Source: Armatimonadota bacterium
Lineage (GTDB): Bacteria > Sysuimicrobiota > Sysuimicrobiia > Sysuimicrobiales > Humicultoraceae
Length of the DNA stretch: 13,363 nt
NCBI GenBank assembly: GCA_016199305.1
Contig: JACQGZ010000149.1
Coordinates: 1 to 13,363 of the forward strand
Direction: 5' to 3'
The notes under the pieces are model-generated. The model was given only the letters and a program-made list of their open reading frames with translations. It ran no database searches and had not been told where the DNA came from. The position numbers and the translations under genes are program-made. The stretch's first letter is position 1. The number at the start of each line of letters is the position of its first letter. Positions 2,758 to 13,174 of the stretch are shown here, piece after piece.

Positions 2758-4959
2758 GTGAGCCTTCGCAGTCGCATCATGATCCTGGTGGCGATGGGCA
2801 TGGTGCTCGCCACCGTCCCCTTGGGCGTTGCGGGGATCGGGATGCTCCGCGCGGCCACCGATCGCATCCTGGAGGAGCGCCTGGCGATGGCGCGGGCCAC
2901 AGCCGAGCATCTCGACCATCTGTTGACCCAGGGGTGGCGGCAACTGGACTACGTCGGCAGGCGCGTCGTTATCGTGGGAGAAGTCGGCGATCCGGCTCGT
3001 GTCCCCGCCGTCCTGGCGGCGGCCCCGCAGACACCCCTCTTCTCAGGGATCTTCTTTGCAGACGCCCGTGGGCGTCTAGTGGCCATGGAGCCGGCGGCTG
3101 GCGACCTGCGTCCGCCTTCTCCGCTGGTGCTGCGATCGGTTCGGGAAGCCCTCACCAGCGGCCGCCGCGCCACCACCGGGCTCCTCCGTACCGAAAGCGG
3201 GGTTCCGGTGGTGATCTTCCTGGTGCCTGCCATCGGACCCACCGGGGCTGTTGTGGGGATCGTGGGAGGGATTGTAAACCTCACCAGCCCAACCCTCCAC
3301 TCGTTCATCGCTGGACTGGCCGTTGGCACCAGCGGTCACGCCGCCATCGTCAGCGCGGACGGGACGGTGCTGGCCAGCACCGATTCCTCCGAACTCTTCA
3401 CGCGCAACGAGCATCCGGAGTTCTTCGCCCGGCTCATCGCCGAGAGGCGGGCCCTGGTGGGCCCGACGGCGGAGCAGCACGGTTCCTCCAACCGGGAGGA
3501 GCGCCACATCATGGCCGGTGCTCCAGTCCCGACCGCGCAATGGGGGCTCGCCCTGGGGCAGAACGAGGAGGAGACCTTTGGCCCTGTTCGCCGGTTGCGC
3601 GGCCTGGTCATCCTCTTTGAGGTCCTCGTGCTCATGGCCGCCCTGCTCTTCGCCTGGCTGGACACCGGCGCCGTCGCGGCCCCGCTCCGTCTGCTGAAGG
3701 AGGCGGCGGAGGGCATCGCGGCCGGGGATCTGCAGCGACGGATCGACGTGCGGCGGGCTGACGAGATTGGAGCGCTGGCACGTAGCTTCGAGACGATGCA
3801 GGCGCAACTGCTCCGTTCCCTCGAGGAAATCCAGCGGCGTAGCCGTGCCTTTCAATCGCTCTTCGAGATCGGCACCGAAGTGCTCAGCCTGCAGGACCGT
3901 GATGCCGTCCTGCAGTCCGTAGCGGTCCGGACCGTGTCCCTCCTGCAGGCCGATGTCGCCTGTGTGTGCCTGCTCGATGACTCAGGGAAGACAGCGCGGG
4001 TGAGCGCCTCGGCCGGAGCGGCGGGGGCGGTGCTCCAGCACCAGCATCCGGTTTCTGTTGCCCCGGGAGATGTCGCGCTGGGGGTCCTGGACTGTCCCAA
4101 CCTGGCAAAACAGTATCGCACCGCCCACCTGGCGTCGCCTCTGACGATCGGTGGTCGGACCGTGGGTGCCCTCTGTGCCGGCACCCAGACGACGCGTACC
4201 TTCTCGACTGAAGACCGGGAGGTGCTGCGTGGGTTGGCCAACCTCGCGGCGATTGCGGTGGAGAACGCTCGTCTCCAGGAGCGCGTGCAGTCGGTGGCCG
4301 TGCTGGAAGAGCGGGAGCGGATCGCCCGTGAGATGCACGACGGCGTGGGTCAGGTGCTGGGCTACGTCAACACCAAGGCCCAGGCGCTGAAGGCGCTGCT
4401 CGATTCCGAGAAGATCGCTGAGGCGCGGGCGCAGCTCGCGCAACTGGAACAGGCGGCGCGCGAGCTCTACGCCGACCTTCGCGAAGCCATCCTGGGTCTC
4501 CGGACGACGACCTTGTCGGACCGCGGACTGATGCCGGCACTGCAGGAGTACGTGCGCCGGTTCAGTGAGCTGAGCGGGGTGGTCACAGCGCTCACTGTCG
4601 AGGGGGACCCATCTCGCTACGTGCTCAGCCCCACCAGCGAACTCCATCTGATCCGTATCATCCAGGAAGCCCTCACCAACGTACGGAAGCACTCGATGGC
4701 CAGGAGGGCGTGGGTCCGGTTTGCCGAACGGGACGAGGTCGTGACGATTGCGGTGGAAGACGACGGGCTGGGGTTCGATCCTACCCGTCTCCAGGCGGGA
4801 GTCTGGCCGAAGTTCGGTCTGCAGATGATGCGGGAACGGGCGGAGGTGATCGGAGGCACCCTTTCCATCCGCTCCCGGGACGGCTCGGGGACGGAGGTCC
4901 TGGTGCGGCTCCCGTTGCAACAGGGGAGGATGGTCGATGCGCGTCCTGCTGGCGGATGA
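2758..4959 (+). CDS. Membrane sensor histidine kinase, Cache-HAMP-GAF-HisKA_3-HATPase (NarX/LiaS-like class)
   Basis: This 733-residue protein has, in order: a first membrane helix (about 7-30); a large extracytoplasmic segment (about 31-280) with the look of a double Cache sensor; a second helix (about 282-301); a HAMP linker (about 303-358); a GAF domain (about 363-502); a HisKA_3 dimerisation helix with ERERIAREMHDGVGQ and phospho-acceptor His527; and a GHKL ATPase with N box QEALTNVRKHS (Asn641), G1 DDGLGF (Asp668-Phe673) and a second glycine box near 687-700. It should sense a small external ligand through Cache, and possibly an internal one through GAF, then phosphorylate the regulator encoded immediately downstream. 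The start is GTG 2758, with GGGAG at 2746-2750 upstream. The last 23 bases overlap the regulator gene, implying translational coupling. The ligand cannot be read from the sequence. Confidence 0.93.
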   Translation: MSLRSRIMILVAMGMVLATVPLGVAGIGMLRAATDRILEERLAMARATAEHLDHLLTQGWRQLDYVGRRVVIVGEVGDPARVPAVLAAAPQTPLFSGIFFADARGRLVAMEPAAGDLRPPSPLVLRSVREALTSGRRATTGLLRTESGVPVVIFLVPAIGPTGAVVGIVGGIVNLTSPTLHSFIAGLAVGTSGHAAIVSADGTVLASTDSSELFTRNEHPEFFARLIAERRALVGPTAEQHGSSNREERHIMAGAPVPTAQWGLALGQNEEETFGPVRRLRGLVILFEVLVLMAALLFAWLDTGAVAAPLRLLKEAAEGIAAGDLQRRIDVRRADEIGALARSFETMQAQLLRSLEEIQRRSRAFQSLFEIGTEVLSLQDRDAVLQSVAVRTVSLLQADVACVCLLDDSGKTARVSASAGAAGAVLQHQHPVSVAPGDVALGVLDCPNLAKQYRTAHLASPLTIGGRTVGALCAGTQTTRTFSTEDREVLRGLANLAAIAVENARLQERVQSVAVLEERERIAREMHDGVGQVLGYVNTKAQALKALLDSEKIAEARAQLAQLEQAARELYADLREAILGLRTTTLSDRGLMPALQEYVRRFSELSGVVTALTVEGDPSRYVLSPTSELHLIRIIQEALTNVRKHSMARRAWVRFAERDEVVTIAVEDDGLGFDPTRLQAGVWPKFGLQMMRERAEVIGGTLSIRSRDGSGTEVLVRLPLQQGRMVDARPAGG

Positions 4960-5590
4960 TCACCCGCTGTTCCGTGATGGCGTGCGCAGCCTGCTGGAAG
5001 CGCGTGGGGTGGAGGTCGTCGGGGAAGCCCGCGACGGCCAGGAAGCTCTGGAGGCCGCGCTGCGCCTCCGGCCTGACGTGATCCTGATGGACATCACCAT
5101 GCCCCGGATGGACGGGCTGGAGGCCACGCGCCTGATCAAGGTCCGGCTGCCGGAGGTCAAGATCGTCATCCTCACCGTCTCCGACGAAGACCGGATGTTG
5201 TTTGAAGCGATCAAGAGCGGCGCCCAGGGCTACCTGCTGAAGGATCTGCAGGCGGACGAGTTCTTCAGCCTCCTCAGCGGCATCGAACGAGGCGAGACGC
5301 CGATCTCCCGGGGGCTGGCCGGCCGGATCCTGGAGGAGTTCGCCCGGCGCCGGCCGGATCGGCCCGAACCGGGCGCGCCAGCTGGGCTGACCGACCGCGA
5401 GCAGGAGGTCCTGACCTGCGTGAGCAGCGGCGCCTCCAACCGGGAGGTGGCGGCCACCCTGCACATCTCCGAGAACACCGTGAAGTTTCACATGAAGAAC
5501 ATCCTGGACAAGCTGCACCTCCACAACCGCGCCGAGGTCGTGGCCTACGCCGCACGCAAAGGATGGCTGCCGTCGGAGAAGGACTGCTGA
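4937..5590 (+). CDS. NarL/LuxR-family response regulator
   Basis: This 217-residue protein has an N-terminal receiver domain with the acidic pair Asp7-Asp8, phospho-acceptor Asp52 (ILMDITMP), Thr80 and Lys102 (YLLKD). The C-terminal LuxR-type helix-turn-helix spans about 150-212 (LTDREQEVLTCVSSG, then SNREVAATLHISENTVKFH). This is the standard partner of HisKA_3 kinases and should bind DNA as a phosphorylated dimer. ATG 4937 has GGGGAGG just upstream inside the kinase gene, and the two reading frames overlap by 23 bases. The next gene on the same strand, 250 bases downstream, is the first cupredoxin, so the copper cluster is the nearest candidate target; autoregulation or distant targets are equally possible. 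Confidence 0.95.
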   Translation: MRVLLADDHPLFRDGVRSLLEARGVEVVGEARDGQEALEAALRLRPDVILMDITMPRMDGLEATRLIKVRLPEVKIVILTVSDEDRMLFEAIKSGAQGYLLKDLQADEFFSLLSGIERGETPISRGLAGRILEEFARRRPDRPEPGAPAGLTDREQEVLTCVSSGASNREVAATLHISENTVKFHMKNILDKLHLHNRAEVVAYAARKGWLPSEKDC

Positions 5591-5721: not shown

Positions 5722-5781
5722 GGGTGCCTGACAAGACTACTCCCCTGTGTGTTGTGGGCTGCGTTCCTGGAGCCCTACGGT
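5722..5781 (+). promoter_or_regulatory. Leader element copy 1 upstream of the first cupredoxin gene
   Basis: The 47 bases at 5735-5781 match 6412-6458 at 38 of 47 positions without gaps. The two ends are most conserved: the first 11 bases (GACTACTCCCC), then GTGTGTTGTG, and the last 10 (GCCCTACGGT). An outer helix can form between GGGTgCC (5722-5728) and GGaGCCC (5769-5775), with one U-G pair and one mismatch. The element ends 59 bases before ATG 5841. It may be a structured 5' leader or a repeated operator/promoter. It matches no riboswitch class I recognise. Confidence 0.55.
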
Positions 5782-5840: not shown

Positions 5841-6266
5841 ATGAAGGAGGTAGCCCTGATAGTTGCGGCAGTGTTGGTGAGCGCCACCGTAGTCTGGGCC
5901 ACGGGCGATCTGAGCCGGCAGACACCCCTCGAACTCAAGGTCCTCCTGGGTTCGAGGGATGCCGAGATGGTCATCCTCCCCAAGACCTGGAACCTGGAGA
6001 CGGGGAAGCTCTACAAGGTCATGCTGGTCAATGAAGGCAAGGTCAAGCACGAGTGGGTGGCTCCCGAGTTCACGCTGACGATCTGGACGCGCAAGGTGGA
6101 GACTGCCGGCGTCGAGGTTAAGGGAGTCATCAATGAAATCGAGCTGCTGCCTGGCGCGAAAGCCGACTGGTACTTCGTCCCCATCCGCACCGGCGAGTTT
6201 GAGATGGCCTGCGAGATCGAGGGCCATAAGGAAGCCGGCATGGTGGGGAGAATCATCGTGAAGTAG
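5841..6266 (+). CDS. Exported plastocyanin-like blue copper protein (cupredoxin)
   Basis: This 141-residue protein has a signal peptide of about 21 residues (MKEVALIVAAVLVSATVVWA) and a single cupredoxin domain. The type 1 copper ligands are visible: His70 in VKHEW, then Cys124, His129 and Met134 in the closing loop ACEIEGHKEAGM (C-x4-H-x4-M), the usual arrangement for plastocyanin- and auracyanin-like carriers. It should be a one-electron carrier outside the cytoplasmic membrane. The frame is open back to 5724, but ATG 5841 is chosen because it follows GGAGG (5828-5832) at good spacing and begins a proper signal peptide. The region upstream holds leader copy 1. A hairpin lies 11 bases after the stop, so this gene is probably its own transcript. 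It is not closely similar to the two cupredoxins that follow. Confidence 0.9.
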   Translation: MKEVALIVAAVLVSATVVWATGDLSRQTPLELKVLLGSRDAEMVILPKTWNLETGKLYKVMLVNEGKVKHEWVAPEFTLTIWTRKVETAGVEVKGVINEIELLPGAKADWYFVPIRTGEFEMACEIEGHKEAGMVGRIIVK

Positions 6267-6277
6267 GATTTGGCCGC

Positions 6278-6300
6278 CCCTGGGGAGATCCCCCACAGGG
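6278..6300 (+). terminator. Hairpin directly after the first cupredoxin gene
   Basis: CCCTGGGG (6278-6285) pairs with CCC-a-CAGGG (6292-6300), an eight-pair stem with one bulged A, 11 bases after the stop codon. TTT follows nearby but there is no real U-tract. It probably contributes to transcription end or mRNA 3'-end protection. Confidence 0.5.
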
Positions 6301-6340
6301 CGAGGGTTTGATCTGTTCGGAAGCGAGAGAATCTCGTCAT

Positions 6341-6386
6341 GAGCGCAGGCCCGACCTACCCGTCGAGGTAGGTCGGGCCTGCGCTC
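6341..6386. terminator. Perfect 20-bp inverted repeat, terminator-like
   Basis: The arm 6341-6360 is the exact reverse complement of 6367-6386, with the 6-nt loop CGTCGA. The arms begin GAGCGCAGGC and end GCCTGCGCTC. It is followed by TTCCCGG rather than a U-tract. It lies between the first cupredoxin and leader copy 2, so it separates two transcripts and may stop readthrough from either side. Confidence 0.7.
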
Positions 6387-6402
6387 TTCCCGGCTGTCGG
6401 GT

Positions 6403-6458
6403 GGGCCGAAGGACTACTCCCCAGTGTGTTGTGAACTGGGCGCCCCGGGCCCTACGGT
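6403..6458 (+). promoter_or_regulatory. Leader element copy 2 upstream of the tandem cupredoxin operon
   Basis: This is the second copy of the 47-nt element (6412-6458), ending 38 bases before ATG 6497. The outer helix here is GGGCC (6403-6407) with GGCCC (6448-6452), the counterpart of the copy 1 helix with different base pairs. An inner hairpin CCCAGT (6420-6425) / ACTGGG (6435-6440) with a 9-nt loop forms well here but poorly in copy 1. The same two end blocks are conserved. Placement before both cupredoxin transcripts suggests shared control. Confidence 0.55.
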
Positions 6459-6496
6459 CGAAGGTGAGGGAAGACTGGCGGTGGCGAGGTGCGATC

Positions 6497-6952
6497 ATGG
6501 AACGGCGGCGTGACGGCATCGTCTACTACGCGCTCGTCGTTGCGATCATTGCGCTGATCATCAGCCTCGTGGCCTATGTCGGGCGGGAGAACCCGGAGGT
6601 CACTTCGGCCCCCCGATCGCCAACGACGATGACGCTCTCCATGGTGGTCGCTACCTTCAGCGGGCAGGGGGTGGCCGCGCACCGCTGGCACCCCACGATG
6701 CTCGTGGTGCGCCAGGGGGATACCGTCGATCTGGCGGTAGCCAACCCTGATGAGTTCAGCCATCAGTTGGAGATCACGGGCTACAACCTGAAGACGAAGA
6801 AGCTCACCCCCGGCAGCAGCGATCGGTTGCAGTTCGTGGCTGATCAGGCGGGCATCTTTGTCTTTCAGTGCGCCTTGCCGCACGACCCGGCCTGGCGTCA
6901 CTGCACGCCTGACCACGAGCTGATGCGTGGCTACCTGATCGTGACGGAGTAG
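6497..6952 (+). CDS. Membrane-anchored cupredoxin with widened CuA-like ligand loop (paralogue 1)
   Basis: This 151-residue protein has one N-terminal membrane helix (about 8-28) after a basic start (MERRR), then a short linker and a cupredoxin domain facing outward. Candidate copper ligands are His89 (EFSHQLEI) and, in the closing loop, Cys125, Cys136, His140 and Met143. The spacing C-x10-C-x3-H-x2-M equals the CuA motif of cytochrome oxidase subunit II and N2O reductase (C-x3-C-x3-H-x2-M), except for seven extra residues between the cysteines. The frame is open from 6308, but ATG 6497 is preferred because it follows GAGGT (6486-6490) and starts the anchor helix. The next gene, 15 bases on, is a paralogue with the same spacing. 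A dinuclear CuA site is inference; a type 1 site or a disulfide between the two cysteines is possible. Confidence 0.8.
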   Translation: MERRRDGIVYYALVVAIIALIISLVAYVGRENPEVTSAPRSPTTMTLSMVVATFSGQGVAAHRWHPTMLVVRQGDTVDLAVANPDEFSHQLEITGYNLKTKKLTPGSSDRLQFVADQAGIFVFQCALPHDPAWRHCTPDHELMRGYLIVTE

Positions 6953-6967
6953 GAGGAGGAGACGGCG

Positions 6968-7459
6968 ATGGACGGACCCAGGTCGGTGCTGAGGTCAGTC
7001 TGGGCCGGAGCCGCGCTCATCATCGCCCTCGTCGCCATCGCGCTGAGCCTGCTGACGCTGGCCGCCCCGCCGACCCCGGCCCGCCCCCTGGCCACTCCGG
7101 TGCCCGTGACCATCGACCTCTCTATGCTGATCACGGGACGAGGGGCCATCGGGGGACCCGCGCTGGAGCACCTCTTCAATCCGGAGATGCTGGTGGTGCG
7201 GCGGGGAGACACCGTGCGCCTTCGGGTGACCAATGGCACGCACTTCCGGCACGGCATCGAGATCGTCGGCTACGGCGTCCGCACCGGCGCCTTGACGGGC
7301 GGCACGCAGAGCTCCGAACTCCTCACCTTCACCGCGGACAAGCCCGGGATCTTCGAGTACCGGTGCTACCTGCCCTACGATCCCGCCACCTCAACATGCG
7401 CACCCGATCACGACAAGATGGTCGGCCATCTGGTGGTCGTCGAGCCTGGGGGCAGGTGA
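6968..7459 (+). CDS. Membrane-anchored cupredoxin with widened CuA-like ligand loop (paralogue 2)
   Basis: This 163-residue protein has an N-terminal membrane helix (about 13-33), a Pro/Ala linker and a cupredoxin domain. It aligns with the preceding protein along the domain: EMLVVRRGDTV against TMLVVRQGDTV, HGIEIVGY against HQLEITGY, and the loop CYLPYDPATSTCAPDHDKM against CALPHDPAWRHCTPDHELM. Candidate ligands are His95, Cys133, Cys144, His148 and Met151, again C-x10-C-x3-H-x2-M. The start at ATG 6968 has a strong AGGAGGAGGA site. It is co-transcribed with paralogue 1. It may act as an electron acceptor or donor for the Fe-S/NrfD pair downstream (inference). A decayed copy of its C-terminal coding end follows its stop codon. 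Confidence 0.8.
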   Translation: MDGPRSVLRSVWAGAALIIALVAIALSLLTLAAPPTPARPLATPVPVTIDLSMLITGRGAIGGPALEHLFNPEMLVVRRGDTVRLRVTNGTHFRHGIEIVGYGVRTGALTGGTQSSELLTFTADKPGIFEYRCYLPYDPATSTCAPDHDKMVGHLVVVEPGGR

Positions 7460-7461
7460 TT

Positions 7462-7500
7462 GACCGCATGATTGGGCATCTGCTCGTCGCCGGACCCGGG
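7462..7500 (+). pseudogene. Remnant of a further cupredoxin paralogue (C-terminal tail only)
   Basis: Directly after the paralogue 2 stop, the frame starting at 7462 reads DRMIGHLLVAGPG, matching the paralogue 2 tail DKMVGHLVVVEPG at 8 of 13 positions with no gaps. Extended by two codons, the nucleotide match is about 29 of 45, spread over codons as in diverged homologues rather than a fresh slip. No start, upstream domain or in-frame continuation into the next gene exists. It looks like the leftover 3' end of a third member of the tandem array. Confidence 0.55.
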
Positions 7501-7510
7501 TCACGGCGAT
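7486..7510 (+). other. Intercistronic hairpin before the Fe-S protein gene
   Basis: GTCGCCGGAC (7486-7495) pairs with GTC-a-CGGCGAT (7500-7510), leaving a CCGG tetraloop and one bulged A. It lies partly in the cupredoxin remnant and 22 bases before GTG 7533. No U-tract follows, so an mRNA processing or stability element, or partial attenuation between the cupredoxin pair and the Fe-S/NrfD genes, is more likely than a strong terminator. Confidence 0.4.
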
Positions 7511-7532
7511 CCAGAGGCCGCAGGGGCGTCGT

Positions 7533-8333
7533 GTGAAGATCTCGCGGCGGAGGTTCATCAAGGTCCTGGCGGCTACGGGTGCAGCCGCAACCCTTCCCTC
7601 TGTGACGAAGCTGGCGGAGTCGTGGGCGGCGGGTGACAAGCGTGCCGTCGGGCAGGGGACGCTGACCCGGCAGTGGGCCATGGTCATTGACCTGCGGAAG
7701 TGCGAGGGGTGCACGACCATCGACAAGCCCCCGCAGTGCGTGGAGGCGTGCAACCGGGCCCACTACCTCCCCGAGGGGCAGCAGTGGATCCGCGTTGTCG
7801 TTGAACGGGACCAGCGGGGCTCTTTCTTCCGACCGATCCCCTGCATGCAATGCGAGAACGCGCCGTGCGTGCAGGTCTGTCCGGTGGGCGCCACCTACCG
7901 CAACGCCAGCGGCGTCGTCCTGGTCGACAACAACCGCTGCATCGGGTGCCGGCTGTGCATGGCTGCCTGCCCCTACGACGTACGTGTCTTCAACTGGGTC
8001 CGGCCCCCCACCCCGCCTGAGGCCGCCCTGGTCAGGTACTCGCCGGAGTTTCCCGTGCCCCATCGGAAGGGCACGGTCTCTAAGTGCATGCTGTGCGCCC
8101 ACCGAACGGCCCATGGCGAACTGCCGGCGTGCGCGGCCGGGTGCCCCATGAAGGCCATCTACCTGGGCGACCTCACCACTGACGTGGCGACAAACGGCGA
8201 TGAGGTGCTGCAGCTCTCCACCTTCCTGAGCGAGAACCACGCCTACCGGTACAGGGGCGACCTGGGCACTCGCCCGCGCGTGTACTACATCCCCGGGCAC
8301 GGGGAGGCCTTCGGCCGGAGGCCAGGGGCATGA
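7533..8333 (+). CDS. Tat-exported four-cluster [4Fe-4S] ferredoxin-type subunit (NrfC/PsrB/ActB-like)
   Basis: This 266-residue protein has a textbook twin-arginine signal, SRRRFIK at residues 4-10, followed by a hydrophobic stretch, so it is exported folded with its clusters. Sixteen cysteines fall in four groups: C57/C60/C69/C73, C104/C107/C112/C116, C136/C139/C142/C146 and C185/C188/C200/C204. This is the pattern of the electron-wire subunit of DMSO-reductase-type complexes, polysulfide reductase and alternative complex III, which normally links a NrfD-type quinone-reactive membrane subunit to a catalytic partner. The start is GTG 7533, behind AGGGG (7522-7526). Its stop overlaps the NrfD start (ATGA), implying a tight pair. 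No molybdopterin subunit is encoded next to it, which is unusual for the family. Confidence 0.93.
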   Translation: MKISRRRFIKVLAATGAAATLPSVTKLAESWAAGDKRAVGQGTLTRQWAMVIDLRKCEGCTTIDKPPQCVEACNRAHYLPEGQQWIRVVVERDQRGSFFRPIPCMQCENAPCVQVCPVGATYRNASGVVLVDNNRCIGCRLCMAACPYDVRVFNWVRPPTPPEAALVRYSPEFPVPHRKGTVSKCMLCAHRTAHGELPACAAGCPMKAIYLGDLTTDVATNGDEVLQLSTFLSENHAYRYRGDLGTRPRVYYIPGHGEAFGRRPGA

Positions 8334-9895
8334 GCGAGGCCCGCCGCCTGGAGGCGCAGCTGCTCGGTGTGCTGGCCCGGCCGCCGCGCTGGTACCCATT
8401 CATTGTGACCCTGCTTGCCGGCGTCGTCGCCTGGGCCTTCTACGCCTGGACTGTGCAGTACCGCATCGGCCTCGGCGTGACGGGAATGCACAACCGCGTT
8501 CCGTGGGGCCTGTACATCATCAACTTCGTCTTCCTCATCGGCATCAGCCATGCCGGCACGCTGGTCTCCGCCATCCTGCGCATCACCGCCGCAGAATGGC
8601 GCCGGCCGATCACGCGCATGGCCGAGGTCATCACGGTCGTGGCGCTCATGACGGGCGCGCTCATGGTCATGGTGGACATGGGACGGCCGGACCGCCTGTT
8701 GTACCTGCTGCGCTACGGGTTCGGCCATCTCAGCTCGCCGATCCTGTGGGACGTCCTCTCCGTCGCCACCTACCTCACGGGGAGCCTGATCTACCTGTAC
8801 ATCCCGCTGATTCCCGACCTGGCGATGCTGCGCGACCGGCTGGGCCCGAAGGTGCCAGGGTGGCAACAGTGGCTCTATCGCACGCTGGCCATGGGCTGGC
8901 GCGGAACGCCGCGCCAGCGGGCGCGGCTGGAGCGGGCGCTCACGGTGATGGCGCTGCTCATCATCCCCATCGCCGTGTCGGTCCACACTGTTGTCTCGTT
9001 TGTCTTCAGCATGACGCTGCGGGTCGGCTGGCACAGCAGCATCTTCGGCCCCTACTTCGTGGTCGGTGCGATCTTCTCGGGGATCGCCGGCATCATCACG
9101 GCCATGGCCGTGTTTCGCCGGATCTACCGGCTGGAGGCGTGGATCACGGAGGAGCACTTCCAGAAACTCGGGTGGCTGCTCCTCGCGCTGAACCTGATCT
9201 ACCTCTACTTCACCTTCTCCGAGTACCTGACGATGGGCTATCAGCCAGACGATGCGGAGGCGGCCCTCCTGCGGCTGCTCTTCATCGGTCCGTACGGAAA
9301 GATCTTCTGGCCCATGGTCCTCGGCGGGCTGGTCGCCCCGGCCCTGCTGGTCATGGTCCCATCCGTCCCCGCCCTGCGCAGCCTCCGCACGGTGCCCGTC
9401 CTCCGGCCGGTGCCGATAGCCCTGACGGCCGCCGGCCTCCTCACCACTGTCCTTCTTGCCCGGGGTATGCCCCAGGCCGCGATCCTGCCTGCCTGGCTGG
9501 CGTCCTGGGAGACTCTCCGCTGGCCCCTGCTCGGTCTCGGTGCGCTCCTGATCCTGAGCCTGGTGCCGGTCCTGCAGGCGCGGCGGGTCGCCAGCCTCGT
9601 CACCGCGTCCGTCCTGGTCAACATCGGCATGTGGTTGAAGCGCTACCTGATCGTCGTCCCGTCCCTCGCGGTGGCCCAAACCCCCTTTGGGGCCATCACC
9701 TACCGGCCGACCTGGGTGGAGTACTCGATCATCGGGGGGACGTTTGCCGGCTTCGCCTTGCTCTACCTGGTCTTCTCGCGGCTCTTCCCGATAGTCTCGC
9801 TCTGGGAGGTGCGGGAGGCCGAGGACAGTGCGATACGCGAGCCAGCGGACGTGGGCACGCGGCCCTACGTTGCACCGGCTGGAGGCAGAACATGA
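8330..9895 (+). CDS. NrfD/PsrC/ActC-family integral membrane subunit
   Basis: This 521-residue protein has about ten or more membrane helices (roughly 21-43, 60-83, 97-116, 138-160, 203-228, 238-262, 280-300, 324-344, 360-378, 397-416, 420-438 and 464-486). Family-type segments include PWGLYIINFVFLIGISHAG, HSSIFGPYFVVGAIFSG, EYLTMGY, and a late NIGMWLKRYLIVVPSL followed by PTWVEY and LFSRLFP-like wording. The last set is reminiscent of ActC of alternative complex III. Family members oxidise or reduce quinone within the membrane and exchange electrons with the Fe-S subunit. It is longer than small NrfD/PsrC proteins and nearer ActC length. ATGA overlaps on both sides couple it to the Fe-S gene and to the next cupredoxin gene, which suggests the three products form one complex. 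Confidence 0.92.
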   Translation: MSEARRLEAQLLGVLARPPRWYPFIVTLLAGVVAWAFYAWTVQYRIGLGVTGMHNRVPWGLYIINFVFLIGISHAGTLVSAILRITAAEWRRPITRMAEVITVVALMTGALMVMVDMGRPDRLLYLLRYGFGHLSSPILWDVLSVATYLTGSLIYLYIPLIPDLAMLRDRLGPKVPGWQQWLYRTLAMGWRGTPRQRARLERALTVMALLIIPIAVSVHTVVSFVFSMTLRVGWHSSIFGPYFVVGAIFSGIAGIITAMAVFRRIYRLEAWITEEHFQKLGWLLLALNLIYLYFTFSEYLTMGYQPDDAEAALLRLLFIGPYGKIFWPMVLGGLVAPALLVMVPSVPALRSLRTVPVLRPVPIALTAAGLLTTVLLARGMPQAAILPAWLASWETLRWPLLGLGALLILSLVPVLQARRVASLVTASVLVNIGMWLKRYLIVVPSLAVAQTPFGAITYRPTWVEYSIIGGTFAGFALLYLVFSRLFPIVSLWEVREAEDSAIREPADVGTRPYVAPAGGRT

Positions 9896-10782
9896 AGAGA
9901 GCGCCGCTGATGGTGGTGGCCGCCGGTGCGATGGCGCTCGTGCTGAGCTTGCTGGTACTTCCGGCGCGAGCGCTGGAGCGCGTTCGCGTGGTCGTCAGCG
10001 AGCGCGGCTTCGACCCGCCGGTGGTCGAGGTCACTGAGGGGGAACTCGTCGAGATCACCTTCGTCTATGGCGACAGTCACCTCCCGCAAGACAACCCGCA
10101 CGTGATCTTCATCGAGGGACTCCGCCTTGAGTCACCCCAGATCAGCCGCGCGCGCCCTGAGGTGGCGGTGCGCTTCACCGCGGAGCAGAGCGGCCGGCTG
10201 CTGTTCAAGTGTACCGCGTACTGTACAGGCCACGACCGGTTGCAGGCCGGCTACCTCAGCGTGCGCCCGGCCTCGGCGGCCGGGCCGGTGCCGGCGGTGG
10301 CCACGGTCCTGCAGTTGCTGGCCGCCCCGCCCGATGTTCCGGGGGCGAAGGCGGCGCTGCGCGCGCAACTTTCGTCCGATGATGGGCAGCCGGTGGAGGG
10401 AGTCCTCGTCCGCTTCGAGCAGCAGGCAGCGCTCGTGAAGACGGGTTGGGCCCCGGTCGGCAGCGCGCGGACGGACCCGCGCGGGGTCGCGCTCATCGAA
10501 TACGCGCCGTTCGGGGACGCTCTGCGGGTGCCGGCCCGCGCGGTCTTCGAGGGCAATGTCCGGTACCAACCGGCAGAAGCGCGGGCCGTGCTGGACCTGC
10601 CCGCCCTCCCGTCGTGGTGGGCACCGGTCGCGGAGGTGCGCGTTCCGGTCGTCGGCACCTGGCTGCTCTGGCTTGTCGTGTCGGCTGTCTGGCTGACCTT
10701 CGCGTATGTGGCTTATCAGGTGTTCACTCTGCCCGAACCCCGGGCGGCGGCGCCGGAGCTTCGGCGCCGTCCGCCACGCTGA
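9892..10782 (+). CDS. Secreted cupredoxin with CuA-like cysteine pair, beta-sandwich domain and C-terminal membrane anchor
   Basis: This 296-residue protein has a signal peptide (about 1-27), then a cupredoxin domain (about 30-125) with His70 (NPHVIFIEG) and the loop CTAYCTGHDRL: Cys107, Cys111, His114 and Leu117. This is close to CuA (C-x3-C-x3-H-x2-M) but one residue shorter before the His and with Leu in the Met position. Residues about 137-236 look like a separate beta-sandwich, transthyretin/Ig-like domain (QPVEGVLVRFEQ, TDPRGVALIEY). A membrane helix at about 252-279 and a short basic tail close the protein, so the copper domain faces outward. The start ATG 9892 overlaps the NrfD stop. 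The tight coupling suggests it docks on the NrfD/Fe-S pair as an electron acceptor or donor. Whether it holds one or two copper ions cannot be told from sequence. Confidence 0.8.
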   Translation: MKRAPLMVVAAGAMALVLSLLVLPARALERVRVVVSERGFDPPVVEVTEGELVEITFVYGDSHLPQDNPHVIFIEGLRLESPQISRARPEVAVRFTAEQSGRLLFKCTAYCTGHDRLQAGYLSVRPASAAGPVPAVATVLQLLAAPPDVPGAKAALRAQLSSDDGQPVEGVLVRFEQQAALVKTGWAPVGSARTDPRGVALIEYAPFGDALRVPARAVFEGNVRYQPAEARAVLDLPALPSWWAPVAEVRVPVVGTWLLWLVVSAVWLTFAYVAYQVFTLPEPRAAAPELRRRPPR

Positions 10783-10801
10783 GAAGGAGGCGAGATCCAT
10801 C

Positions 10802-11680
10802 ATGTGGAGGATTCTGACGCGGTTGGGGAGTGTGCTCGTGCTCGTCCCGGCCATCCTGGCTGTCTCCCTGCACCCGGGCGGCATTAAGGCGGCATCCGCC
10901 CCCCTGAAGGTGGAGGTTCAGATGGTCGCCCACTTGGCCGGGTGCGTGGACCGGAATCTGGTCATGCGGGGCGACCAGGTCATCTGGCTGATTAAGGTAT
11001 TTGATCCCGGAGGGCAAGAGATCACGGCCGGCCTGGATGTGACCGTCCGCGCCGGCACGCTTCAGGTGAAAGCCATAGGGTATGTACCCCAGACGAAGTT
11101 TTGGGCCGTCCCGCTTTCCATCGTCTGGGATATGCCGACAGGCAGCCTTCCCTGGTACGTCACGGTTCGGGACCCGCAGGGTAACGTCGTCGAGTGGCGG
11201 CCGCCCACATACACGGTCAACCGAGTGCTGACCATCATCCCAGGCCCACTCAAGGTGGGTGCCCAGGTGGTCGATCCCGTTTCGGGCAATCCTGTTGCGG
11301 AGGCCAGACCCGGCACGGTCCTACGCATCACCGCATCGGTCAGCCGTCCCGTTCGCGGTGACCTCTATCCTTACGGGAAGCCCGACCGCGAATTGACCGG
11401 GGTCGGGTTGACGCAGACCAAAGGCGCCCCGCTCACCCAGGATGTGACTGTCCGCGCGACCGTCGGCCAGGGGGCCTTCGTGCAGGGGACGCAGACCTTC
11501 TCTGGCGGGGTGCTGGCGACGGTTCCGGTGACCTACGACCTGGCCAGGGAGATCTGGCGGGCGTCATTTGCCATCCCCGCGGGCGCCGCACCCGGCGCGT
11601 ACACGGTTGCCGTCGTCGCAAAGGACAAGTACGACAACACCGGTGTGGGCCTGAGCGCAGCGATCACGCTGCGCCGTTAG
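10802..11680 (+). CDS. Secreted beta-sandwich (Ig-like) protein of unknown function
   Basis: This 292-residue protein has a signal peptide (about 1-31) and then two probable beta-sandwich domains. The first (about 36-145) contains HLAGCVDRNLVMRGDQVIWL, with its only cysteine, Cys48, and His44, and ends near TIIPGPL. The second (about 150-292) ends with PGAYTVAVVAKDKYDNTG, typical of Ig-like extracellular domains. No heme motif, catalytic triad or anchor is seen. The start is ATG 10802 after GAAGGAGG (10783-10790); the longer frame to 10706 runs into the preceding gene and lacks a signal peptide. It is 19 bases after the cupredoxin gene, so it is co-transcribed and probably an extracytoplasmic accessory or docking protein of the complex. 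I do not recognise a named family with confidence. Confidence 0.7.
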   Translation: MWRILTRLGSVLVLVPAILAVSLHPGGIKAASAPLKVEVQMVAHLAGCVDRNLVMRGDQVIWLIKVFDPGGQEITAGLDVTVRAGTLQVKAIGYVPQTKFWAVPLSIVWDMPTGSLPWYVTVRDPQGNVVEWRPPTYTVNRVLTIIPGPLKVGAQVVDPVSGNPVAEARPGTVLRITASVSRPVRGDLYPYGKPDRELTGVGLTQTKGAPLTQDVTVRATVGQGAFVQGTQTFSGGVLATVPVTYDLAREIWRASFAIPAGAAPGAYTVAVVAKDKYDNTGVGLSAAITLRR

Positions 11681-11701
11681 GCATCCTGGGAGGTGACTTC
11701 T

Positions 11702-13174
11702 GTGAGACGAAAGTTGATAAGGTCTTGGGTTGTACTGCTGCTCGGAGTCGTCGCGGCAACTGCCGCGTTGATGCCGGCAGCGGCCCAGCCCGCCGTCGCG
11801 GAGACGAGCGAGGCGACCATCGCCCTGGCTCCGACTCAGGGGACGGTGGGTACGCCGGTGATCGTTGCTGGCCGGGGGTTCCCGGCGGGGCGGACTATTA
11901 CGCTGGTCTGGGAAACTGCGCGTGCTGTAGTCGTCGCCGAGGGCAACCTGTACGGCGGGCGCAAGATCGAGCCGGCGGCGCTGCCGCTGGCTCAGGTCCT
12001 CGTCCGGCCCGACGGCACGTTCTCCTCGCGGCTGGCCATTCCCCGGGATTATGGCGGGGTGCGGAACATCATCGTGCGCCTGGATGGGACGGAGGCCGCG
12101 CGGGCGGGATTCCGCCTGTGGCCGAGTCTGAGGATCTCCACGACGAAAGGGCCTGTCGGCACGCCCATCCGCCTGCGTGGCGAGGGCTTCGGCCTAGGCA
12201 CCACCGATAGCCAGTTCCACGTGATCTACGACAACCGCTATATGGGAGTCTTTTCCGCCGCGGCCACACACGGCACTGTCGACTTCACGATCTACGCCGC
12301 GGGAGACCCGGGGCTGCACCGCATCGACGTCTACCCGAACTTCTACGGGCCGGCCTACCTGAACAACCACGACGGCTTCAAGGAATACGCTGAGGTCCCT
12401 CGATGGGGCTGGAACTTCACGGTAGCGCCCGGCCGGGCCCTGTTGAGCGGTCCAGCCGCGAGCGGACGCTTCGTCAGCGGCCGCGTCACGGGCCCTGTCC
12501 CCGCGCTTCCCGACGGGCCGCCGCTGACAGTCTCGCCGGCACAGGGGCCGGTGGGCACCCGTGTGCGCGTCACGGCAGGCAGCTTTCGGCCGGGGGAGCG
12601 CGTCGAACTCGTCTGGCAGTCCCTCACTGGCGCGTACATTCAGGAGGGCGGCTTCAAGTTCGTGGACACAGTGCTGGCGACCGCCGCGGCGGGCCCGGAC
12701 GGGCGGGTGACTTTCACGACGGTCGTACCGGCCGACGCCGGTGGGTGGCATCCTATTCTGGCCCGGGCTCCCTCCCAGACTGCGGTCGGGCGGTTCGGGC
12801 TCGTGCGAGCGGTCACAGTGGGTCCATTGTCTGGTCCCCCGGGCACGCAGATCCATATCCGGATCACAGGTGCCGGCTGGCGGTCGTGGGAAAACACGGC
12901 GGCGGTCACGTGGGACAACGGCTACACCGGCTATGCCTGTGCCCTCGGCCCCGAGAAGGGCACGATCAACATCTACCTGACCGCTGTGGGTGCGCCCGGA
13001 CGCCGCGTGATCGGGATCTGGCCGGCCATCTTTCGGGGCCCGCTTAGCGTCAACTATGGTGGGAGCCAGCCGGAGAACCAGCGCCTGGCGTTTCTGACGC
13101 CTCAGGACCTTCCCGAGAGCGTCGAGCCCCTCACATTCGTCTTCGACCTGATGGCCGGAGAGGCCAGCCCTTAG
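11702..13174 (+). CDS. Secreted protein with a duplicated two-domain IPT/TIG-like module
   Basis: This 490-residue protein has a signal peptide (about 1-33, cleaving near AAA or AVA). The rest is an internal duplication: unit A (about 40-222) and unit B (about 275-453), each with an N-terminal IPT/TIG-like domain (APTQGTVGTPVIV against SPAQGPVGTRVRV, both followed by an LVW segment) and a second domain (GPVGTPIRLRGEGF against GPPGTQIHIRITGAGW, with VIYDNRYMG against VTWDNGYTG). There is one cysteine (Cys413) and no anchor or catalytic motif. GTG 11702 is preferred over GTG 11693 because GGGAGG (11688-11693) is correctly spaced only for it. It is the last gene before a long hairpin. A structural or binding role outside the membrane is likely; specific function is unknown. 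Confidence 0.75.
   Translation: MRRKLIRSWVVLLLGVVAATAALMPAAAQPAVAETSEATIALAPTQGTVGTPVIVAGRGFPAGRTITLVWETARAVVVAEGNLYGGRKIEPAALPLAQVLVRPDGTFSSRLAIPRDYGGVRNIIVRLDGTEAARAGFRLWPSLRISTTKGPVGTPIRLRGEGFGLGTTDSQFHVIYDNRYMGVFSAAATHGTVDFTIYAAGDPGLHRIDVYPNFYGPAYLNNHDGFKEYAEVPRWGWNFTVAPGRALLSGPAASGRFVSGRVTGPVPALPDGPPLTVSPAQGPVGTRVRVTAGSFRPGERVELVWQSLTGAYIQEGGFKFVDTVLATAAAGPDGRVTFTTVVPADAGGWHPILARAPSQTAVGRFGLVRAVTVGPLSGPPGTQIHIRITGAGWRSWENTAAVTWDNGYTGYACALGPEKGTINIYLTAVGAPGRRVIGIWPAIFRGPLSVNYGGSQPENQRLAFLTPQDLPESVEPLTFVFDLMAGEASP

Follow-up and report, generated by a model that had tools for sequence, protein, structure and literature searches.

The window, which is the whole 13,363-nucleotide stretch of DNA analysed here, encodes what is probably a quinol:cupredoxin oxidoreductase that contains neither molybdenum nor heme and is located on the membrane's outer face. 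The unit spans positions 5841-13174 and consists of cup1, cup2, cup3, an Fe-S protein, an NrfD protein, a third subunit, sec1, and sec2. We base this assignment on sequence: the gene set, the export signals, the conserved quinone-site and metal-ligand residues, the recurrence of the unit without molybdenum genes, the exchange of the third subunit's head among relatives, and a shared repeat. The proteins would form a complex in which quinol, probably menaquinol, is oxidised by the ActC-like NrfD protein at a site that faces outward, with the four clusters of the Fe-S protein passing electrons to a CuA-like center in the third subunit. An Ig-like domain and a membrane helix would keep this subunit in position above the complex. 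From there, cup2 and cup3, both anchored, and cup1, which is soluble, would relay the electrons, with a heme-copper oxidase as the most likely destination and other respiratory enzymes as possible ones. A kinase/regulator pair upstream may switch on cup1 and the large operon together via a 47-nt repeat. The features are as follows.

2758-4959, + strand: sensor histidine kinase with dCache, HAMP, GAF, HisKA_3, and HATPase domains (Pfam)
4937-5590, + strand: response regulator, open reading frame, NarL type by eye
5735-5781, + strand: 47-nt direct repeat, copy 1, upstream of cup1
5841-6266, + strand: cup1, secreted type-1 (blue) copper protein, C-x4-H-x4-M
6412-6458, + strand: 47-nt direct repeat, copy 2, upstream of cup2 and the large operon
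6497-6952, + strand: cup2, membrane-anchored CuA-like cupredoxin, C-x10-C-x3-H-x2-M
6968-7459, + strand: cup3, membrane-anchored CuA-like cupredoxin, C-x10-C-x3-H-x2-M
7533-8333, + strand: Tat-exported four-cluster Fe-S protein, DsrO/NrfC-like, 266 aa
8330-9895, + strand: NrfD/ActC-like integral membrane protein with a predicted quinone site (PF03916, E 7e-34)
9892-10782, + strand: third subunit, with signal peptide, CuA-like cupredoxin head, Ig-like domain, and C-terminal membrane helix
10802-11680, + strand: sec1, secreted protein
11693-13174, + strand: sec2, secreted, with Ig repeats of IPT/TIG-like type (TIG E 0.002, below cut-off)

All of the named genes are intact open frames, and the ATGA overlaps at 8330 (Fe-S/NrfD) and 9892 (NrfD/third subunit) are present in the sequence, as a preliminary description of this DNA had indicated for its set of Fe-S, NrfD, copper, and secreted genes. 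That description placed two anchored cupredoxins upstream, which correspond to cup2 and cup3, and missed a third upstream gene, the blue-copper cup1. It was also right that the unit holds no molybdopterin or heme gene; a motif scan found CxxCH in none of the eight proteins. Most of the gene set was found again in the loci of relatives, so the set is not a chance arrangement. No Pfam family matched sec1 above cut-off, and homologues of both sec1 and sec2 adjoin the unit in the same loci (L033, L035, L147, L148, L175, and L184). Rfam at gathering thresholds and a promoter/terminator scan gave nothing useful. The window is an entire contig (G000:C111) from a genome bin that is 69% complete, so the sequence past both ends is not readable.

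The Fe-S protein contains exactly 16 Cys (4 x 4), and its Tat signal (PF10518) and Fer4_11 domain both score above the Pfam cut-offs, in agreement with its earlier reading as a four-cluster, Tat-exported protein. Its relatives in the PDB include PsrB-type and ActB chains. The NrfD protein has no Cys at all, and the four solved chains scoring beyond E 1e-20 against it are ActC-type (E 6e-62 to 4e-57), which bears out its description as ActC-like. The ActC quinone-site residues named in section 7 of PMC8076601 align to D116, S136, and D141 of the NrfD protein. D116 takes the position of ActC His139, which is Asp in DsrP and QrcD according to the same section. These three residues are conserved in all 61 rows of the branch described below, and ActC Asp253 aligns to V225.

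In a tree of 91 NrfD proteins, 61 rows group together, set apart from the rest by a branch with 100/97 support, and their records carry the names of eight phyla besides the window's own. The relatives' loci are the top 80 of at least 584 and were retrieved with a query from the same branch, so shares given here are not frequencies in nature. Left out of the final tree were copies of L035 and L033 (two rows of L129, and L135), long branches (L188_7329, L149_14863, and L198_2303), a near copy of L207 (L138), and one sequence that was too short (L170). Of the 61 rows, 55 have a copper or heme carrier encoded on the same strand, no more than about 3 kb away. A bare carrier scan, which is heuristic, gave 54/61 on the same strand versus 6/61 on the opposite strand.

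The third subunit appears to have an exchangeable head. Within the branch, third subunits with an Ig domain and membrane helix carry a cytochrome c in 19 rows and a CuA-like cupredoxin in 5, and the others carry neither. The window's own protein, whose stop-to-stop frame starts too early, was assigned to the copper-Ig type by direct reading. Its Ig domain was assigned via homology to the third subunits of relatives, and its cupredoxin domain scores 16.4 of 27 bits, under the Pfam cut-off, with relative P0128 just over it at 27.9. The motif is C-x3-C-x2-H-x2-L, with putative ligands H70, C107, C111, H114, and L117, the first four of which are kept in 8/8 family members. The heme motif is near the N-terminus in 17 of the 19 heme rows and near residue 280 in L185 and L189. 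Elsewhere in the branch, NrfD and the Ig-TM subunit are fused in one frame (11/61 rows, including G015), and in the phylum's other loci the protein after NrfD has no cupredoxin head. L142 (heme) and L147 (copper) are sisters with support of 100/100; since sister loci differ in the head, electrons seem to leave through the third subunit. They are probably taken up by the copper proteins, because the cupredoxin sits where relatives have cytochrome c. The earlier proposal that copper replaces the usual partner thus probably holds for the window. It does not extend to all homologous neighborhoods: the genes do co-occur without a molybdoenzyme, but heme c stands in place of copper in many relatives, which counts in part against the proposal and refines it. 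We therefore rejected copper as a universal partner.

Canonical CuA sites have a His followed by C-x3-C-x3-H-x2-M. This consensus is not matched by cup2, cup3, or the third subunit, each of which has exactly two Cys: the ligand types are present, but the spacing deviates, with C-x10-C in cup2 and cup3, and C-x2-H and Leu for Met in the third subunit. The label CuA-like, earlier given to the third subunit, therefore fits the two His and two Cys of all three, which lie in positions resembling those of CuA, but not their spacing; canonical spacing occurs in relatives L162, L177, L182, and L202. These unusually spaced sites are putative copper sites, and their spacing counts to some extent against the proposed role. 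The cup2 protein reaches 27.2 bits against Pfam Cupredoxin_1 (cut-off 27), and cup3, which has no Pfam match, gave nitrosocyanin, NosZ, and CoxB matches, all below cut-offs. The cup3 motif is found in 118 of the 120 homologues listed, the remaining two having I for M, and H95, C133, C144, H148, and M151 are invariant across 37 aligned sequences. For cup1, relatives were found, and Pfam Cupredoxin_1 (E 2.5e-4) and NCBIfam CopI both match below cut-off; it is probably a mobile carrier.

The histidine kinase likely regulates the unit. Its homologues (52-66% identity) lie beside the unit in L035, L036, L037, L039, and L041, and those of the response regulator (73-90% identical) in the same loci and L034. 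The core of the 47-nt repeat occurs just twice in the available genome bin with up to 3 mismatches allowed, and imperfect copies are found upstream of cupredoxin genes in relatives. It is absent before three first-of-run genes (L037 cup1, L039 cup2, and L035 16527-17006). Copy 1 is a probable operator or promoter element of cup1.

A candidate acceptor is suggested by G011, where COX2-COX1-COX3 is followed on one strand by cup2-cup3-cup1-cup4-FeS-NrfD-IgTM. COX1 is also present in the window's genome. Only 3/61 rows have oxidase genes within 12 kb, as judged with a one-sequence profile and from short contigs, so we rejected a branch-wide link to heme-copper oxidase and use G011 alone as oxidase evidence. 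The unit also does not replace complex III: PF13631 cytochrome b is present in 42/43 genomes and the unit in 9/43, and we discarded the idea of a substitute for a missing bc complex.

Three other explanations were weighed. The Fe-S/NrfD pair could have a detached molybdopterin subunit as its true partner, with the copper genes as further carriers or merely co-regulated neighbors, which we regard as quite unlikely. It would fit a partial mobB at 2-322, 5.5 kb before cup1, the 69% completeness of the bin, and, in G001, a molybdenum gene some 4.6 kb downstream of NrfD in the unit. It would also fit G006 (97% complete), in which a Tat Fe-S protein, a weak NrfD relative, a molybdopterin enzyme, MoeA/MobB, and MobA are followed on one strand by cup2/cup3 homologues. 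This run indicates that such copper proteins are not bound to the Fe-S/NrfD complex alone; an exclusive tie was rejected, and the earlier view of copper as the replacement partner is weakened to that extent. However, G006 has no NrfD of the window's branch, and its Fe-S/NrfD genes lie outside it. Moreover, 60 of the 61 branch rows lack a molybdenum gene within 6 kb, and the one present in the remaining row comes with an Fe-S gene of its own. This absence applies to the sequence that could be read, since many contigs are short; within that scope it supports the earlier reading of a unit without a molybdoenzyme subunit. The sole PF00384 match in the bin is a fragment on another contig, NuoG-like by eye. 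The third subunit bears a heme or copper head, and the twin-arginine motif is on the Fe-S protein itself in 52 of 58 readable branch rows versus 2/28 on the molybdenum side, both of which argue against a detached molybdenum enzyme.

It is likewise unlikely that the complex serves specifically to feed electrons to a copper-dependent enzyme of denitrification, be it nitrous oxide reductase or NirK, through NosZ-like CuA proteins as its specific donors. Among curated families, the C-terminal stretch of NosZ ranks first for cup2 and second for cup3, both matches being far below cut-offs. The G006 cup2/cup3 pair is about 7 kb from nosZ, and the G020 contig that bears the unit also has nosZ, about 12 kb from where the unit starts. 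Nevertheless, nosZ scores above cut-off in 12/43 genomes, with two further fragments at contig ends in G024, and overlaps with the unit in 4, versus about 2.5 expected by chance, and G004 (96% complete) has the unit without nosZ. Since nosZ does not track the unit, we rejected nitrous oxide reductase donation as the main role. Finally, electrons could run in reverse, from an extracellular donor such as a metal or sulfur compound through copper to the quinone pool, an option raised in the preliminary description. The secreted sec1 and sec2 and the multiheme cytochromes adjoining some heme-type relatives (L128, L131, L132, L169, L188, and L189) could reflect such a role. CuA and blue copper centers have potentials of about +0.2 V and above, which would make menaquinone reduction strongly uphill, and the G011 oxidase operon fits the forward direction; we consider reverse flow very unlikely indeed.

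Complex III and alternative complex III are well-known quinol-to-oxidase routes. It is quite possible, if a little short of probable, that the unit represents a separate, widespread class of quinol:electron-carrier oxidoreductases in which the head is exchanged between cytochrome c and a CuA-like domain, with the window's version an all-copper chain with two new types of CuA-like site. A three-part quinol route whose exit subunit repeatedly switched between heme and copper would add a respiratory class, and the switching would give a natural test of how such carriers replace each other. A fixed loop of 10 residues between the two Cys, as in cup2 and cup3, would make for a copper site of a new kind.

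The preliminary description held that Fe-S/NrfD pairs normally serve a molybdoenzyme or alternative complex III, which is too narrow: the relevant passages of PMC8076601 describe Nrf, Dsr, and Nhc pairs without molybdenum, and those of PMC11434368 present Shewanella SirCD and Geobacter Cbc4 (cbcSTU) as molybdenum-free Fe-S/NrfD quinol dehydrogenases. Its suggestion of an undescribed path survives for the copper-only composition and Ig-anchored branch, which look new, but not for quinol-to-blue-copper transfer by an NrfD-type complex, which is known; a title in the reference list of PMC3150298 reads "menaquinol:auracyanin oxidoreductase".

The unit appears to resemble SirCD and Cbc4 in its gene set, Tat signal, and carriers, as an Fe-S protein and NrfD feeding a separate carrier. 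Cbc4 includes a c-type cytochrome, and the passages of PMC11434368 on these complexes mention no Ig-TM subunit or copper protein for them. Molybdenum Fe-S complexes (CISM) differ in their molybdopterin catalytic subunit, absent from the unit and within 6 kb in one of the branch rows. As in DsrMKJOP, a Tat Fe-S protein occurs without a molybdenum subunit, and DsrO and DsrP are the best NCBIfam matches, but both are under cut-off (185.8 of 200 and 100.7 of 350 bits) and DsrM, DsrK, and DsrJ are absent from the window's unit. With the cupredoxin domains of NosZ, COX2, and nitrosocyanin, the cup2, cup3, and third-subunit proteins share two His and two Cys, but they have 10 residues between Cys or 2 from Cys to His, unlike CuA, and no catalytic domain. 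With alternative complex III (ActABCDEF, including the Chloroflexus menaquinol:auracyanin enzyme) the unit shares an ActC-like NrfD protein, a four-cluster Fe-S module, and a predicted path from quinol to cupredoxin or oxidase. ActB, of about 1000 aa with molybdenum-like and Fe-S domains, is absent and the Fe-S protein is separate here; the unit has no multiheme ActA or monoheme ActE, and no ActF was found, the bin, 69% complete, having a single PF03916 match. The window's unit adds the Ig-TM third subunit and the CuA-like proteins.

We confirmed the observation made in the preliminary description. In the open frames of the window, which is an entire contig (13,363 bases) from a genome bin of 1.58 Mb that is 69% complete, the unit is intact with both of the reported ATGA overlaps, and it includes the Tat-exported Fe-S protein. 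One member, the blue-copper-type protein cup1, was missing from that description's list. The unit consists of:

5841-6266, + strand, blue-copper-type protein (cup1)
6497-6952, + strand, membrane-anchored CuA-like cupredoxin (cup2)
6968-7459, + strand, membrane-anchored CuA-like cupredoxin (cup3)
7533-8333, + strand, Fe-S protein
8330-9895, + strand, NrfD protein
9892-10782, + strand, third subunit: signal peptide, cupredoxin head, Ig-like domain (by homology to relatives), C-terminal helix
10802-11680, + strand, secreted protein (sec1)
11693-13174, + strand, secreted protein (sec2)

The Fe-S protein contains exactly 16 cysteines, NrfD contains none, and the cupredoxins contain one or two. CxxCH is absent from all eight proteins, in agreement with the earlier claim that the unit has no heme gene. 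At the contig start (2-322), a partial mobB-like frame (Pfam MobB, 30 bits) precedes an acyl-CoA dehydrogenase. Several copies of sec1/sec2-like secreted proteins adjoin the unit in the related loci L175 and L148.

Named genomes were scanned with a query alignment built from 15 NrfD proteins, and the best 80 of at least 584 confirmed loci were used. Gene families were mapped on these loci together with nine from the phylum and the window (hereafter the best-80 set), and a careful tree was generated from 91 NrfD rows. In the best-80 set, 61 rows fall together with the window's own, separated from the rest by a branch with 100/97 support, and a quick tree of 95 rows likewise placed the Ig-type rows in a single starred set of 62. 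Among the 30 best-80 rows on the other side, 26 lie no more than 6 kb from a molybdopterin gene, and the other four start less than 1 kb from a contig end. Relatives had been expected to lack a neighboring molybdoenzyme, and this was borne out in the best-80 set, with such a gene within 6 kb in 1/61 rows (L036), where it is accompanied by its own Fe-S gene. Record names for 50 of these 61 rows give Chloroflexota (31), Acidobacteriota (8), Actinomycetota (3), Bacillota, Gemmatimonadota, and Verrucomicrobiota (2 each), and Omnitrophota and Nitrososphaerota (1 each), labels that belong mostly to bins and may individually be wrong.

The nearest solved structure to the window NrfD is ActC of alternative complex III (E 6e-62 to 4e-57), and the nearest curated model to the Fe-S protein is DsrO, with a score below the cut-off. 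The ActC quinone-site residues, as named in the available text of PMC8076601 (section 7), align with D116, S136, and D141 of the window NrfD, which are identical in 61/61 branch rows and 30/30 outside rows of the best-80 set. Asp253 of ActC corresponds to V225. In the same set, R231 is present in all 61 branch rows, with Gln in 27 of the 30 outside. A twin-arginine motif was found on the Fe-S protein in 52 of the 58 readable branch rows versus 2 of 28 on the molybdenum side (best-80 set). Molybdenum-side Fe-S proteins presumably leave the cell together with the molybdenum subunit, using its Tat signal, and RR motifs were seen at the N-terminal start of molybdenum subunits.

Within the phylum (present-day Sysuimicrobiota, the CSP1-3 lineage according to the available text of PMC11604079), NrfD of the window's branch occurs in 9 of 43 genomes, at 11 loci. 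The genome G007 shares its family with that of the window. Loci L034, L035, L036, L037, L039, and L041 contain a kinase, a regulator, a blue-copper protein, more cupredoxins, the Fe-S protein, NrfD, and an Ig-TM protein (Ig-like domain plus membrane helix). L040 has the same gene set without a close kinase or regulator; the nearest ones have 35-44% identity and lie on the opposite strand. Here, in genome G011, COX2, COX1, and COX3 (Pfam), with a 67-amino acid frame between, are followed on one strand by cup2, cup3, cup1, cup4, the Fe-S protein, NrfD, and Ig-TM. In L033, where only 1 kb of contig precedes the Fe-S gene, no copper gene was seen, and NrfD and Ig-TM form one frame. The cupredoxin head is absent from the post-NrfD protein in these relatives (L038 is partial, truncated at its contig end).

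Genome G006 has no NrfD of the window's branch, and its cup2/cup3 pair ends a one-strand run of a (multi)heme protein, Tat Fe-S protein (240.7 bits), weak NrfD relative (65.7 bits), molybdopterin enzyme, MoeA/MobB, MobA, cup2, and cup3. This pair behind a molybdenum operon argues against an exclusive tie of cup2 and cup3 to the complex. The pair with its operon (L116 13823-14772 and L210 1-5627) lies about 7 kb from nosZ, and the run includes a mobB-moeA fusion.

The copper-headed form of the third subunit closest to the window was found in eight database proteins, including the window's own, in which Pfam found only a cupredoxin, below the cut-off. H70, C107, C111, and H114 are present in all eight, with Leu or Met at 117; six of the seven others come from contigs equal in length to that of an NrfD match and may therefore lie on the same contigs. 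Across the 61 rows (best-80 set), the subunit is Ig-TM alone in 24, heme-Ig-TM in 19, one frame with NrfD in 11, copper-Ig-TM in five (counting the window, assigned by direct reading), and not found in two. L128 and L171 have a Pfam cytochrome c domain above the cut-off and an Ig domain below it; the Ig domain is also below in L137, L148, and L153, and above in L175. In the NrfD tree of the best-80 set, the copper-headed rows are not grouped, with at least four changes for five rows forced by starred branches, and heme-headed L142 is sister to copper-headed L147 (support 100/100). Where the subunit is headless, a separate carrier usually adjoins it (Ig-TM rows, 19/24; fused rows, 10/11; best-80 set). 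Overall, 55/61 best-80 rows have a same-strand copper or heme carrier no more than about 3 kb away; four of the six remaining rows are near a contig end, L035_5281 sits next to a second, tandem copy that has its copper genes 4.2 kb off, and L191 has none. A bare carrier scan of the best-80 set gave 54/61 on the same strand and 6/61 on the opposite strand. Because heme and copper substitute for each other at one subunit, which is the strongest evidence, the cupredoxin head is likely the electron exit.

Both cup2 and cup3 keep every CuA ligand type, with 10 residues separating the two Cys. The motif C-x10-C-x3-H-x2-M is found in 118 of the 120 cup3 homologs listed (of 145 found), with Ile replacing Met in the other two; an alignment of 37 sequences shows no variation at the His, Cys, Cys, His, and Met positions. 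Engineered proteins have been switched between CuA and type-1 sites by loop exchange, per the available text of PMC7480511, and therefore the type of site cannot be read from loop length alone. In L162, L177, L182, and L202, the Fe-S gene is directly preceded by a small cupredoxin whose CuA spacing is canonical; NrfD and the Ig domain form a single frame in the first three, and no Ig was found in L202. L119, L120, and L124 contain a second copper/Fe-S set, in which a membrane protein with a 4Fe-4S motif (NosR-like by eye) is flanked by small proteins with canonical CuA motifs. Its neighbor is nosZ in L120, whereas in L119 and L124 it sits next to genes for a kinase and a regulator.

The window has a 47-nt direct repeat, with one copy upstream of cup1 (5735-5781) and the other upstream of cup2 (6412-6458), and its 21-nt core has no further copy in the bin at up to three mismatches. 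In relatives, 7 of 12 regions upstream of cupredoxin genes have a copy with 3-6 mismatches, beginning 75-123 nt before the start codon, against a background of 27/3000 random 250-nt windows from the same loci, some of which may hold real sites. In all seven, the gene that follows is the leading cupredoxin gene of its run; this also holds for three of the five regions that lack the copy. The repeat is probably the target of the adjacent response regulator (4937-5590; kinase, 2758-4959). Since it is shared, with copies in relatives, joint control of cup1 and the large operon by this two-component system is suggested. Between cup1 and cup2, a perfect 20-nt inverted repeat with a 6-nt loop and no T run (6341-6386) is a possible terminator or processing site.

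We propose that quinol would be oxidized in NrfD near the outer face, with electrons crossing the four clusters, reaching the third subunit at its head, and then moving through anchored and soluble cupredoxins to an acceptor, a direction based on the redox potentials of the carriers as generally known. The acceptor would most likely be a heme-copper oxidase, because PF00115, a family that may include nitric oxide reductases, has matches in 9/9 genomes with the unit and a COX operon adjoins it in G011.

The main part of the earlier interpretation, a quinone:cupredoxin oxidoreductase, held up; the copper partner is not universal, as relatives use heme, and two statements of what is known were too narrow. 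One was that Fe-S/NrfD pairs normally serve a molybdopterin subunit or alternative complex III; molybdenum-free NrfD-type complexes are well described in the available portions of PMC8076601 and PMC11434368. Our searches of open-licence papers turned up no description of the Ig-anchored branch or of copper-only partners, and there is a fair chance that this branch merits its own class. PMC8076601 sorts 4,545 NrfD sequences, and the word "copper" is absent from its available text. Alternative complex III has itself been described as a menaquinol:auracyanin oxidoreductase (a title cited in the available part of PMC3150298). Cupredoxins also lie beside an unusual nitrate reductase of methanotrophic archaea, a system that, as presented in the available part of PMC5244752, is different from the window's complex.
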